A DNA stretch of 49,356 nucleotides from an uncultured Pelagibacteraceae bacterium (GCA_902574725.1 CACGPA010000002.1:1-49356), one strand, 5' to 3'. Positions 2,185-15,008 are shown, counted from the stretch's first letter. Numbers and translations: made by a program. The notes: a model not told the origin generated them from the letters alone.

Positions 2185-3317
2185 TGAATCAATATTTAAA
2201 AAATTTGAAATTACTTGAGAAAAATCATGTTTATTCCAAGAAAATGGAACATGATGCTTGCGGCGTAGGTTTGGTTGCGTCAATTGATGGAAAAAAATCT
2301 AGAAAAGTTATTGAATACGGAATAGAAGCCCTAAAAGCTGTTTGGCATAGAGGAGCAGTAGATGCTGATGGAAAAACAGGTGATGGTGCCGGAATCCACA
2401 TCGAAATTTCCTCAGACTTTTTTATTGAAAAAATAGAAATGTCTGGACACAAATATGACAACTCGGAAATTTGTGTAGGAATGATTTTTCTACCAAGAAA
2501 TAATTATTCAGCTCAAGAAAGTTGCAGAACTTTAGTTGAGAGCGAACTTACGAAAAATAATTTTAGCATTTATGGATGGAGACAAGTTCCTGTAAATACA
2601 GCTGTTTTAGGTGAAAAAGCCGAACAAACTAGACCCGAAATAACTCAAGTTCTATTTAAATATAACGACAAAAATGTAACTGGAAAAAAATTAGAAATAA
2701 AACTTTATGAGTCTAGGAGAAAAATTGAAAATAGGGCTATAGAAAATAATTTGAAGGATTTTTATATTTGTTCATTCAGTTCTAAATCAATTATTTACAA
2801 AGGGATGTTTCTTGCGGAAGCATTATCTGATTTTTATCCCGATCTTCAAGATCAAAGATTAATTTCTAGATATGCAATTTTTCACCAGAGATTTTCAACC
2901 AATACTGCTCCTAGTTGGGATTTAGCGCAACCCTTTAGAGCACTTGCACATAATGGGGAAATAAATACTTTAAAAGGAAATATTAATTGGATGAAAGTTC
3001 ATGAACAAGAAATGTCCAGCCCTTTATTTGAAAATATAGAAAATATAAAACCAGTTATTCCACCTGGAAATTCAGATTCCGCATCTTTGGATAATGTTTT
3101 TGAACTGTTAAATATTTCTGGTCAACCAGCACCTTTAGCTAAACTTATGTTAATTCCAGATGCATGGTCAAAAAAAAGTATGGTTTTACCAAAAGATCAT
3201 CAGCGATTATTTAATTTTTTAAACAGTACAATGGAACCATGGGATGGACCGGCAGCTATAGCAGCTACAGATAATGAGTGGATAATGTCATTTTTCCATC
3301 TTCTATATTGTCTATAG
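2184..3317 (+). pseudogene. gltB: Glutamate synthase large subunit, N-terminal about 370 aa only; abruptly truncated near 3289
   Basis: Class II glutamine amidotransferase N-terminus (HDACGVGLVASIDG, WHRGAVDADGKTGDGAG, YAIFHQRFSTNT, AHNGEINTLKGN, MEPWDGPAAIAATD) followed by unrelated residues SFFHLLYCL; full-length GltB is about 1500 aa. Confidence 0.85.
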
Positions 3318-3768
3318 AACAGTTAAATGATGGAAATTTTTTAAGTGAAGCTGTTACAGCTTTTATAATAAAAGCTAATGGAGTTATTTTTTTATTTTCT
3401 CCTGTATAAATATCTTTAAGAGAATTTCTAAATTTTTCCATTTCAGTTACATCAGCTTCATCATGATTTGTTACATGAGGTATAGTTGTCCAAGAATTTG
3501 TAAGATATTTTGCAGTAAGTCTTTTTATTCTTGGAATATCTTTTACTTCAATTTCACCAAAATCAGAATGTGAAAATTCATTTTTAATATTGCTTTTTTC
3601 TGAAAAGGATTTTTGAAAAGTTTTTTCTTTAACAAATTTTTTAATATCATTTTCAATAACTCTTCCTTCTCTTTTGCTTCCAGTAATTTGGTTTATATCT
3701 AAACCTAATTCTCTTGCAAATTTTCTAACTTTTGGACTTGCCGGAACTCTACTTTTTCTTTCAGACAT
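3265..3768 (-). pseudogene. aceF: Pyruvate dehydrogenase E2 (dihydrolipoamide acetyltransferase) fragment: peripheral-subunit-binding domain plus first half of catalytic domain; no lipoyl domain; C-terminus truncated
   Basis: PSBD motif RVPASPKVRKFARELGLDINQITGSKREGRVIENDIKKFV; catalytic start RIKRLTAKYLTNSWTTIPHVTNHDEADVTEMEKFR...PLAFIIKAVTASLKKFPSFNCSID; ends in TLSTHYL without the HxxxDG active site. Confidence 0.85.
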
Positions 3769-3769
3769 A

Positions 3770-6700
3770 TTATAATTTACTTGGAAACGGTTTTTCAGTT
3801 TCTATGTTATATTTTTTTATCGCCTCTTGTGCATATTTTGATGCTATTAATTGTTCTTTAGAAAGAATACTAAGTGCATAAGTCACGATATATTTTTTAT
3901 CCACTTCAAAAAATTTTCTTAAATTTTCTCTTGTATCACTTCTACCAAATCCATCCGTACCTAATGAATAAAAACTCTTTTTCACATATGGTCTTATTTG
4001 ATCAGAATAACTTCTCATGTAGTCTGACGCGGCTAAAATTGGTCCTTCTGTTTTTCCAAGACATTTGTCAACATATGAAACTTTCTGTTTTTTATCTGGA
4101 TTTAAAAGGTTATATCTTTCAGTTTCCATGCCATCTCTTCCTAATTCGTTGAAACTTGTAACACTCCATACTTCGCTATCTATTTTATATTCATTTTGTA
4201 AAACTTCTGCACCAGCGATAATTTCTCTTAATATAGTTCCGGAACCTATTAATTGTATTTTTGTTTTTTTAAATTTATTAAATTCTTTAATTTTATACAT
4301 ACCTTTTAATATTCCTTCTTCGCAATTTTTATCTTTTGGCATTTCTGGGTGGGAATAATTCTCATTCATTGTTGTTATGTAATAAAAAATATTTTCTTTT
4401 TTTTCATGCATTCTTTTTATTCCATCTCTAAAAATTACTGCTAGCTCGTAAGAAAATGTTGGATCATAAGATACACAATTAGGTATAGTAGAGGCCAACA
4501 TATGACTATGTCCATCCTGATGTTGTAATCCTTCGCCAGCAAGTGTTGTTCTTCCAGAAGTTGCTCCTATCAAAAAACCTCTGGACTGGCTATCCCCTGC
4601 GGCCCAATTAAAATCTCCTGTTCGTTGAAATCCAAACATTGAGTAAAAAAGATATATTGGTATCATTTCAATGTCGTGATTTGAATAAGCTGTGCCCGCT
4701 GCAATCCATGATGACATTGATCCTGCTTCGTTAATTCCTTCTTCTAAAACTTGTCCTTTTTTATCTTCTCTGTAAGAACTTAATTCTTCTGAATCTTCTG
4801 GTTCATATTTTTGACCCTCATGTGCATAAATTCCTATTTTCTTAAAAAAACCTTCCATTCCAAAAGTTCTTGCCTCGTCAGGAATTATTGGGACAAGTCT
4901 TGGAGCAACATTTTTATCTCTTAGCAGATTTGTTAATAATCGAACAAAAACCATTGTTGTAGACATTTCTTTTTTTCCAGTTGATTCTTTCAAAGAATCA
5001 AAAATATCTTTTGGCGGAGACTTAATTGGTTTGGCATATGTTGTTCTTTCTGGAATAAAGCCTCCTAAATTAAGTCTTCTTTCCTTCAAATATTTTATTT
5101 CTGGAGAATTTTCATCTGGCCTAAAATACTGAATTTCTTGAACTTGCTTGTCGGTCAAAGGAACATCAAACCTATCCCTGTAATACATCAAATCATCAGT
5201 ATCCATTTTTTTTTGCTGATGAGTGGTGTTAACGCTCTCTCCAGTTTTACCCATTCCATACCCTTTTATAGTCTTTGCTATAATAACTGTTGGGCTTCCA
5301 ACATTTTTTGAAGCCTGATCATATGCCGCATAAACTTTGTGTGGATCGTGACCACCCCTATTTAACCTCCATATATCTTTATCCGATAAAGCGGATACTA
5401 ATTCTTTTGTTTCAGGATATTTTCCAAAAAATTTTTCTCTTACATATAGGCCATTTCTAGCTTTATAAGCTTGATACTCACCATCAACTGTTTCGTTCAT
5501 TAATTTAACCAAATGACCAGTTTTATCTTTTGCTAATAACTGATCCCAATATGATCCCCAAATTACTTTTATAACATTCCAGCCAGATCCCCTAAAAATC
5601 CCTTCTAGCTCCTGAATAATTTTTCCATTTCCTCTTACAGGTCCATCTAATCTTTGTAAATTACAGTTAACTACAAAAATTAAATTATCTAATTTTTCTC
5701 TAGCTGCTAAACCAATTGCACCTAATGACTCTGGTTCATCGGTCTCGCCATCTCCAATAAAAGCCCAAACTTTTCTATTTTGATCTTTAATTAAACCCCG
5801 ATTAATTAAGTATTTCATAAACCTAGCTTGATAAATAGCTAACATTGGTCCTATGCCCATAGATACAGTTGGAAACTGCCAAAAATTTGGCATTAACCAT
5901 GGGTGAGGATAAGATGACAGACCACCTGGTTTTACTTCCTGCCTAAATTTATCTAACTGTTTCTCACTTAATCTACCTTCTAAAAAAGCTCTAGCATACA
6001 TACCTGGAGCACTATGTCCTTGAAAATAAATAAGGTCTCCTCCAAATTTATTATTCTTTGCTTTCCAAAAATGATTCATTCCTACATCGTAAAGAGTGGC
6101 AGCAGATGCAAATGTTCCTATATGACCTCCTAACTCAGGGAATTTTTTATTTGCTCTAACAACCATTGCTGCAGCATTCCATCTAATCAAAGATCTAATT
6201 TTTCTCTCAATATTTTGATCTCCTGGTGACTTTGCTTCTTTATCTGGAGATATTGTATTTATATATGGAGTATTTCGTGAAAGAACTAAATCAGATCCTT
6301 GTTTATAAGAATGTTCAATTAATTGTTTAATTAAAAATTGTGCCCTTTTACTTCCGTCTGTTTCTAATACTGATGAAAGTGAATCCATCCATTCTTTTGT
6401 CTCACTTACATCAATATCTTCACTATTTTTTGATAAATTATATTTTTCTGAAGCAATCTTTATTGGTGTATCAACTATTTTCTCTTTTTTTTCTATCGAT
6501 TTTTCAGCTTCTCTAATTAAATTTTCTGTATCTTTAGGTATTTTTTCTTTTTTAACTTTTAATTCTTCAGGATTATTTTTTTGTTCAGCATTTACCTCTA
6601 AAATTAAATCACCCTTTGAAACTTTATCACCAACTTTTACATTTATGTTTGAAACAACACCTTCTATTTCTGATGGAACTTCAACACTTGATTTGTCACT

Positions 6701-6817
6701 TTCTAAAGTAACTACTGGATCATTTTTTTTTATTTTTTCTCCTACTTTTACAATTACTTCAACAATTTCCACTTGTTCGAAATCACCAATATCAGGTACA
6801 TTTAATTTATTTGTCAT
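3770..6817 (-). CDS. aceE: Pyruvate dehydrogenase E1 (homodimeric AceE type) with an N-terminal lipoyl domain fusion
   Basis: Likely start at internal ATG 6817 (MTNKLNVPDIGDFEQVEIVEVIVKVGEKIKKNDPVVTLESDKSSVEVPSEIEGVV = lipoyl domain with DKSSVEV), linker, then AceE body (ETKEWMDSLSSVLETDGSKRAQFLIKQL..., GGHIGTFASAATLYDVGMNHFWKA, GDGETDEPESLGAI). ORF track start 6859. Confidence 0.93.
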   Translation of the reverse strand: MTNKLNVPDIGDFEQVEIVEVIVKVGEKIKKNDPVVTLESDKSSVEVPSEIEGVVSNINVKVGDKVSKGDLILEVNAEQKNNPEELKVKKEKIPKDTENLIREAEKSIEKKEKIVDTPIKIASEKYNLSKNSEDIDVSETKEWMDSLSSVLETDGSKRAQFLIKQLIEHSYKQGSDLVLSRNTPYINTISPDKEAKSPGDQNIERKIRSLIRWNAAAMVVRANKKFPELGGHIGTFASAATLYDVGMNHFWKAKNNKFGGDLIYFQGHSAPGMYARAFLEGRLSEKQLDKFRQEVKPGGLSSYPHPWLMPNFWQFPTVSMGIGPMLAIYQARFMKYLINRGLIKDQNRKVWAFIGDGETDEPESLGAIGLAAREKLDNLIFVVNCNLQRLDGPVRGNGKIIQELEGIFRGSGWNVIKVIWGSYWDQLLAKDKTGHLVKLMNETVDGEYQAYKARNGLYVREKFFGKYPETKELVSALSDKDIWRLNRGGHDPHKVYAAYDQASKNVGSPTVIIAKTIKGYGMGKTGESVNTTHQQKKMDTDDLMYYRDRFDVPLTDKQVQEIQYFRPDENSPEIKYLKERRLNLGGFIPERTTYAKPIKSPPKDIFDSLKESTGKKEMSTTMVFVRLLTNLLRDKNVAPRLVPIIPDEARTFGMEGFFKKIGIYAHEGQKYEPEDSEELSSYREDKKGQVLEEGINEAGSMSSWIAAGTAYSNHDIEMIPIYLFYSMFGFQRTGDFNWAAGDSQSRGFLIGATSGRTTLAGEGLQHQDGHSHMLASTIPNCVSYDPTFSYELAVIFRDGIKRMHEKKENIFYYITTMNENYSHPEMPKDKNCEEGILKGMYKIKEFNKFKKTKIQLIGSGTILREIIAGAEVLQNEYKIDSEVWSVTSFNELGRDGMETERYNLLNPDKKQKVSYVDKCLGKTEGPILAASDYMRSYSDQIRPYVKKSFYSLGTDGFGRSDTRENLRKFFEVDKKYIVTYALSILSKEQLIASKYAQEAIKKYNIETEKPFPSKL

Positions 6818-13301: not shown

Positions 13302-15008
13302 TTAATAAAGTTTTTCAAAAGAATTTTTGTATTTTTGTACAATTTTAAATCTTTTTAACTTTAATGTTGGTGTTAACATTCCATTTTCAATTGAAAATTT
13401 TTCATTAATTGTAAAAAACTTTTTAATATTTTCTATTTTAGATAATTTTTTGTTAACTTTTTCAATTTCTTGTTTAATTTCTTCTTCTGATGAAGATTTT
13501 TTTTCATAATTAAGAACTAACAATGCAACAAGATATGGTTTATTATCTCCATAGACAATTGCTTGATCAATTATTTCAGAATTAATTAATTCATTTTCTA
13601 TTTTTAATGGTGAAATATTATCTCCACCTGGTGTAATCAAAATATCTTTCTTTCTATCAGTTATTTTTAAATAATTATTTTCAAAAACTCCTATATCCCC
13701 TGTATGAAGCCAACCATTCTTTAATACTTTGTCTGTTTCCTCTTTATTGTTCCAATATCCAAGCATAACATTTTCACCTTTAACTAAGATTTCTCCATCC
13801 TCTGCAATTTTTACCTCATTTCCTTTAAATGGAGGTCCAACTGTTTCTACTCTAATGTCATTTATTGGATTACAACTCACTACTGGAGACGTTTCTGTTA
13901 AACCATAGCCCTGTAGGGTAGGTAAACCTATTGCATTTAAGAAAAAACCTACTTCCTTATCAAGAGCTCCTCCTCCTGAAACGAAGGTTTTTAAAGATCC
14001 ACCAAATTGAGCCTTAATTTTTTTCCTTACAATTTTCTCTAAAATTTCATCTTGGATTTTTTCAATGAAATTTAATGAATCTTTTTTAATTTTTTTAAGT
14101 CCAAGATTTAGCATTTTTTGAACCAACACTTTTTTAACTCCTGTTGCTTTGTTAAAGCTTGCATTTATTTTTTGATAAAGGTTTTGATAAAATCTTGGAA
14201 CAGCGGTCATAATTTCTGGTCTACATTCGTTCATATTTTTTATTAACTTCTCAATACTCTCTGCATAAAATATTCTCGCTGCAACAGTAATTTGAACAAA
14301 TTGAACTGTGTGTTCATAAGAATGAGATAAAGGTAGCCAAGTCAAAAATCTAGTTTGATCTTTTTTTATCAATGGTTTTAAAATTTCAATAGCTCCCTCA
14401 CAATTATTCAAAATTCCACCATGACTTAAAACAACTCCTTTTGGATTACCTTGTGTTCCAGATGTATAAATTATACAAGCAGGATCTTTTCGAGTTATTT
14501 CAATTTTATAATTATTATTTTTGTCAGTTGATTTGGAAAATAAATTATTTACATTTATATAATTGTCTTCCTCAATATCTGATAGTTTTTCAAAAGAAAA
14601 AATTTTTTTTATAAATTTTTTATTTTTGATTATATTTTTTAATTTTCTAAATTGTTCGTCGTTTGATATGAAAACAAATGATGGGGAACAATCATTAATA
14701 ATATATTCATAATCTCTCTCTGCATAAGTTGTGTATGCTGGAACAGTTATTGATCCTGATAACATAATAGATAGATCAGAAATAAACCATTCTGGTCTAT
14801 TTTCTGAAACTAATAAGCATCTATCGCCTTTAGTTACATTTTTTCTTATTTCCTCTGATAAAATATTGATTGCTTCATAAGTATTTTCCCAAGTGAAATT
14901 AATGTTTTTATCTTTCAACGATGATAGTAATACTTTTTTTTTATCTTTTTGATTTTCGAACTGTTTAAAAAATAATTCAACTAAATTATTAATATTACTT
15001 AAATCCAT
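13302..15008 (-). CDS. Long-chain acyl-CoA synthetase (AMP-forming)
   Basis: 568 aa; IIYTSGTQGNPKGVVLSHGG, GYGLTETSPVVS, GWLHTGDIG, ITDRKKDILITPGGDNISP motifs. Confidence 0.93.
   Translation of the reverse strand: MDLSNINNLVELFFKQFENQKDKKKVLLSSLKDKNINFTWENTYEAINILSEEIRKNVTKGDRCLLVSENRPEWFISDLSIMLSGSITVPAYTTYAERDYEYIINDCSPSFVFISNDEQFRKLKNIIKNKKFIKKIFSFEKLSDIEEDNYINVNNLFSKSTDKNNNYKIEITRKDPACIIYTSGTQGNPKGVVLSHGGILNNCEGAIEILKPLIKKDQTRFLTWLPLSHSYEHTVQFVQITVAARIFYAESIEKLIKNMNECRPEIMTAVPRFYQNLYQKINASFNKATGVKKVLVQKMLNLGLKKIKKDSLNFIEKIQDEILEKIVRKKIKAQFGGSLKTFVSGGGALDKEVGFFLNAIGLPTLQGYGLTETSPVVSCNPINDIRVETVGPPFKGNEVKIAEDGEILVKGENVMLGYWNNKEETDKVLKNGWLHTGDIGVFENNYLKITDRKKDILITPGGDNISPLKIENELINSEIIDQAIVYGDNKPYLVALLVLNYEKKSSSEEEIKQEIEKVNKKLSKIENIKKFFTINEKFSIENGMLTPTLKLKRFKIVQKYKNSFEKLY

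Follow-up and report, generated by a model that had tools for sequence, protein, structure and literature searches.

Which subunit carries the swinging lipoyl arm of the pyruvate dehydrogenase (PDH) complex? In the textbook complex, the arms belong to the E2 core. The question arises anew from a locus found in a stretch of 49,356 nucleotides, which we call the window, from an uncultured member of the Pelagibacteraceae (SAR11); SAR11 are the commonest bacteria of the ocean and are among the most abundant cells on Earth. The original prediction, made from this DNA, was that the lipoyl domain had been relocated from E2 to the N-terminus of E1. We consider it very probable that the window encodes an AceE-type PDH whose E1 carries the swinging arm and is here its sole carrier, and that this state was reached by the copying of an E2 domain onto E1, followed by later losses from E2.

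The E1 and E2 genes both lie on the minus strand. The aceE-type gene occupies positions 3770..6817: its reading frame opens with the ATG at 6817, ends with the stop codon at 3770-3772, and encodes 1015 amino acids. Pfam places a Biotin_lipoyl domain (PF00364) at amino acids 4-74 (E 2.3e-18, 66 bits against a cut-off of 22), followed by the domains expected of a homodimeric E1 of the AceE type: Transketolase_N, PDH_E1_M (E 1.5e-104) and the TK C-terminal domain (PF00456, PF17831, PF22613). The top PDB relative is the E. coli E1p, 1l8a, which spans amino acids 133-1012; together with Pfam and the alignment of E1 sequences, this match delimits an AceE body at amino acids 134-1012 (3782..6418). 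The order that had been predicted, a complete lipoyl domain, a charged linker and an AceE body in one reading frame, is thus what the domain search recovers. The departure from the usual AceE architecture, which is free of lipoyl domains, lies in the PF00364 match, a feature that does not define the catalytic type.

The lipoyl domain itself extends over amino acids 4-76 (6590..6808), and is all-beta in an AlphaFold model of E1, with a pLDDT of about 71-85. This model has a mean pLDDT of 56 and is poor beyond the lipoyl domain, the alignment being too shallow for the body; for the same reason, a fold search with the whole model adds little. The domain has at its hairpin the DK motif of lipoyl domains: D41 and K42 are invariant across 42 aligned E1 sequences, and the surrounding motif ESDKSS occurs in 84/84 Pelagibacteraceae E1s with an intact start. 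The lysine K42, whose codon is at 6692..6694, is the predicted lipoylation site and is most likely lipoylated.

Between the lipoyl domain and the body lies a charged linker, amino acids 79-133 (6419..6583), predicted with low pLDDT on both sides of a single helix; in the linkers of the family, no residues are as frequent as E and K. The helix, amino acids 95-107 (6497..6535), contains the motif TENLIREAE, which a pattern search recovers in 70 of 84 E1s, two more having a variant form. In the pattern TE[NK][IL]I..AE, the motif is kept in most of the window's genus, and is missing from the clade around loci L070-L092. We also considered whether a longer linker in E1 offsets the absence of a lipoyl domain in E2: by one measure the means are 77 residues when E2 lacks the domain versus 68, a difference that is not significant with only 4 independent pairs.

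The E2 gene begins one nucleotide (3769) after E1, with an ATG at 3766-3768. In its open reading frame, 3265-3768, Pfam finds no lipoyl match; the first domain is the peripheral-subunit-binding domain (PF02817, E3_binding, E 2e-11) at amino acids 8-42 (3643..3747). Coordinates and Pfam therefore agree with the prediction that E2 starts directly at the subunit-binding domain, with no lipoyl domain before it. We will call such an E2 bare. Of the features of an AceF-type E2, the N-terminal lipoyl domain or domains are absent from the E2 of the window and from its bare relatives, and the subunit-binding domain is present. The acyltransferase core follows as an N-terminal fragment (3283..3552) that covers only positions 4-91 of the 232 of the 2-oxoacid_dh profile (PF00198), so that the motif HxxxDG falls in the truncated part. 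Intact bare E2s of relatives retain both the subunit-binding domain and, in most cases, the active-site motif, as HRIIDG or HRVIDG. Two bare clades have HRVVNG or HRIING at this place: L027, L028, L088, L235 and L237 in one, and L239, L248 and L249 in the other.

The truncation has its own explanation. The sequence that derives from aceF is limited to 3283..3768, as shown by the reading frame, Pfam, alignment to relatives and blastn, and the last codons of the frame, down to 3265, come from the other side of an inverted junction with gltB at 3281..3287. Compared by blastn with the related locus L079, window positions 2514-3281 correspond to 13585-14352 in direct orientation, and positions 3283-4300 to 9544-8527: the points joined in the window are 4.8 kb apart, and inverted, in L079. 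In relatives, the genes are arranged as thiolase, aceE, aceF, an EamA transporter, a uppP-like gene, gltD and gltB (neighbours named by eye), with aceE, aceF, gltD and gltB on one strand, and gltB is an intact open frame of about 1500 amino acids. The window has gltD and the 5' part of gltB (the large subunit of glutamate synthase, PF00310, 2184..3281, plus strand) in the opposite orientation, meeting aceF at about 3281-3287. The source genome, which is 54.6% complete, yielded neither the remaining, C-terminal part of E2 nor another copy of the large gltB gene. In more than 85% of the chimeras produced by multiple displacement amplification (MDA), the sequence is inverted and the stretch in between is deleted (PMC1855051). 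The junction has this usual form and is thus very likely an MDA chimera from whole-genome amplification; that a single junction breaks two housekeeping genes is also typical of such chimeras. Many close relatives are single-cell amplified genomes (isolate names of the AG- series), from which we infer that the source genome is one too. The original prediction merely alluded to another assembly error, and did not describe this truncation of E2.

With a chimeric junction inside the E2 gene, one may ask whether the bare E2 is an artefact of assembly or annotation, the true E2 being lipoyl-bearing. The junction is on the 3' side of E2, however, and the gap of one nucleotide between E1 and E2 leaves no space for a lipoyl domain; by blastn to L079, only the 3' truncation is artefactual. 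The junction leaves the E1 fusion and the E2 N-terminus untouched. Moreover, about 40 further loci, drawn from many assemblies, have intact bare E2s, and no stray lipoyl-bearing E2 turns up elsewhere in near-complete genomes. An artefact is thus refuted by the relatives, and we give it next to no credence. An assembly error within E1, at 6400-6817, had been named as another way in which the prediction could fail: it is ruled out by the same continuous frame in every Pelagibacteraceae E1 examined, these being 71-87% identical to that of the window over their full length.

How widespread is the lipoyl-bearing E1? The comparison took in two sets of loci, 80 with names and 30 without, which overlap in part (L028 and L088, for example), so that its counts are not all independent; in it, 84/84 Pelagibacteraceae E1s with an intact start have the N-terminal lipoyl domain, which is absent from the gamma- and betaproteobacterial AceE outgroups. 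At the level of genomes, the lipoyl-bearing E1 used as query matched 271 of 298 Pelagibacteraceae genomes, across all 10 genera, and among the E1 matches listed the alignments start at query residues 1-5. Some genomes of 92-97% completeness have no such match (G009, G875, G906 and G930). A wide spread of the architecture can be rejected: in 385 alphaproteobacterial genomes it is confined to the Pelagibacteraceae, the other AceE matches beginning beyond the lipoyl region. Across the phylum (399 genomes), no listed match outside the family starts before query residue 101, and 18 of these loci, mostly with long open frames, were fetched and have no lipoyl domain in E1. The sister genus g5, represented by two genomes that are complete or nearly so, carries a pair of lipoyl domains on E1 and a single one on E2; its two-lipoyl E1s are at L201:3663-7001 and L202:3303-6635.

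The bare E2 has a narrower distribution. In the family E2s that adjoin E1, again with partly overlapping loci, the lipoyl domain is kept in 67/87 and missing in 20/87; bare E2s appear in at least five Pelagibacteraceae lineages, and most relatives have the domain on both E1 and E2, among them the cultured Pelagibacter HTCC9565 (L045). By a hand count from the table of matches, the window's genus has about 48 genomes with a single match only. Twenty of them, picked for this reason, were fetched: a lipoyl-bearing E1 beside a bare E2 of about 300 amino acids was found in 20/20.

If E2 is bare, its arm might be supplied by another protein. A lipoyl-bearing PDH E2 elsewhere in the same genome would have spoken against the original prediction; in near-complete relatives with a bare E2, none was found. 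The inventory was drawn from G850 (99% complete), G867 (98%), G873 (97%), G879 (97%), G004 (96%) and G918 (95%); for G004, G850, G867 and G873 the sequence itself shows the bare E2, which for G879 and G918 is deduced from their having a single match. In these near-complete genomes, PF00364, a family distinct from that of GcvH, matches exactly three proteins: E1, one of about 440 amino acids, and one of 119-145 amino acids that is AccB-like by its length. The protein of about 440 amino acids is taken to be SucB; in the source genome of the window, it adjoins a sucA-type gene. The PF00364 search found no second lipoyl-bearing E2, and no lipoyl-bearing E3, elsewhere in them. Genomes reached through named loci, some of them incomplete, give an agreeing inventory. 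In G889 there is a fourth PF00364 match, a marginal one (E 1.6e-4). With just E1, SucB and an AccB-like protein at hand, E1 seems to be the only plausible carrier of the PDH arm in bare-E2 genomes.

The bare E2 could nevertheless borrow lipoyl domains in trans, from the SucB of 2-oxoglutarate dehydrogenase or from GcvH, the domain on E1 being accessory. E1p enzymes are selective for their own lipoyl domains, which speaks against such borrowing, as does the conservation of E1: its lipoyl lysine is invariant, and no intact E1 of the family has lost the domain, as expected of a working arm. On the other side, a lipoyl-bearing SucB is present in most bare-E2 genomes, and there is a precedent in the OdhA of Corynebacterium, which relies on AceF, another subunit, for its lipoyl domains (PMC7568260). 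On balance we hold borrowing in trans to be very unlikely.

A related observation concerns the lipoylation machinery. LipB (TIGR00214) was not found in the bare-E2 genomes G004, G005, G023, G031 and G035, and is present in G012, G016, G025, G034 and G158. Three of those without it, G004, G005 and G031, are related; the lack of a match in them may reflect a different route of lipoylation or gaps in the genomes.

By what path did E2 become bare? All lipoyl domains of the family, those of E1 and those of E2, form one clade apart from the outgroups (support 99/95), which fits the copying of an E2 domain onto E1, and a single origin of the E1 copy is compatible with the lipoyl tree (p 0.38); this tree, with only 73 columns, does not suffice to prove in which direction the duplication went. 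The bare state requires at least five changes on the E1 tree and at least six on the tree of E2 cores, and the E1 tree rejects a single bare clade (p-AU 4e-82). Recombination in SAR11 may spread bare E2s among lineages, and inflate the number of losses. Parsimony counts by themselves do not separate gain from loss, and in the E1 tree bare lineages branch off close to the base, so that the bare E2 might be ancestral in the family, with the domain regained on E2 several times. However, the outgroups and the sister genus have the domain on E2, the lipoyl domains of E2 are not nested within those of E1, and the bare loci L076 and L081 stand beside a relative, L078, whose E2 has the domain and whose sequence is otherwise very similar. 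An ancestral bare E2 thus appears very improbable. The history that these sequences point to is a gain on E1 that the whole family shares, and after it repeated losses from E2, about five or more. Of the predicted relocation, the position of the domain stands, present on E1 and absent from E2; the single step does not, the copy on E1 being family-wide and the loss from E2 secondary.

We can now outline how such a complex might work; its lipoylation, the movement of its arm and its geometry are inferred. The E1 homodimer would dock onto the subunit-binding domain of E2. The lipoyl domain of E1, on its flexible linker of about 55 residues, would undergo reductive acetylation in one of the active sites of E1, swing to the catalytic core of E2 to pass the acetyl group to CoA, and be reoxidised by an E3 that is docked on an adjacent E2. 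In evolutionary terms, the E2 lipoyl domain of the family would have been copied onto E1 in an ancestor of the Pelagibacteraceae; this copy would have made the domain of E2 dispensable, and several lineages would then have deleted it. That the arm of E1 does the work of the E2 arm is the economical reading of an invariant DK lysine, a predicted all-beta fold, a docking domain and an active-site motif that are kept, and no other carrier. More speculatively, E1 in bare-E2 lineages might load itself, the number of working arms depending on how much E1 is bound and not on E2, with a size, a stoichiometry and an active-site coupling unlike those of every PDH of known structure, and with the linker helix taking part; we offer this as a tentative idea, rather less likely to be right than wrong.

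How does this architecture compare with known ones? The classical AceE/AceF/Lpd complex of E. coli (E1p, 1l8a; E2 core, 7b9k) has, like SAR11, a homodimeric AceE-type E1, the gene order aceE-aceF, and an E2 with subunit-binding and catalytic domains; it differs in that SAR11 has a lipoyl domain on E1, and the window's lineage has none on E2. In Zymomonas mobilis there is also a lipoyl domain on an E1 subunit, probably the beta subunit, but E1 is heterotetrameric and of a different family, and E2 probably keeps a lipoyl domain; the E1 of Mycoplasma hyopneumoniae is heterotetrameric too. For Zymomonas mobilis, PMC7873978 cites subunit alpha as the E1 subunit with the domain. In Mycoplasma hyopneumoniae the arm is, as in SAR11, on a subunit other than E2, but this is E3 (PdhD), where K42 is lipoylated according to LC-MS/MS (PMC7873978). 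In the actinobacterial PDH-ODH hybrid (OdhA/AceF; PMC7568260, PMC10415282), a catalytic domain without lipoyl domain likewise uses the arm of another subunit, which is E2 (AceF) there and E1 in SAR11. None of the PDB matches has a chain that unites AceE with a lipoyl domain. A search of the open-access journal literature found nothing on a lipoyl-bearing E1 in SAR11, and a SAR11 paper reports aceEF and extra copies of aceE, in passages that make no mention of domain architecture (PMC10030771). Precedents for an arm off E2 are thus known, and for the SAR11 architecture itself we found no description.

SAR11 offers a natural series: the arm on both subunits, two domains on E1 with one on E2, and an arm confined to E1, a state that arose several times. 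With it, one can test directly on which subunit the arm has to sit, and why the change is so rare. Given the abundance of SAR11, the textbook form of a central carbon enzyme may not apply to a large share of the bacteria in the ocean. Some of these genomes also have another AceE-like protein, a paralogue with about 51% identity and no lipoyl domain (L032:1492-4143 and L160:1-2418); that of L032 adjoins genes that, named by eye, are histone-deacetylase-like, msrB-like and 2-hydroxyacid-dehydrogenase-like.
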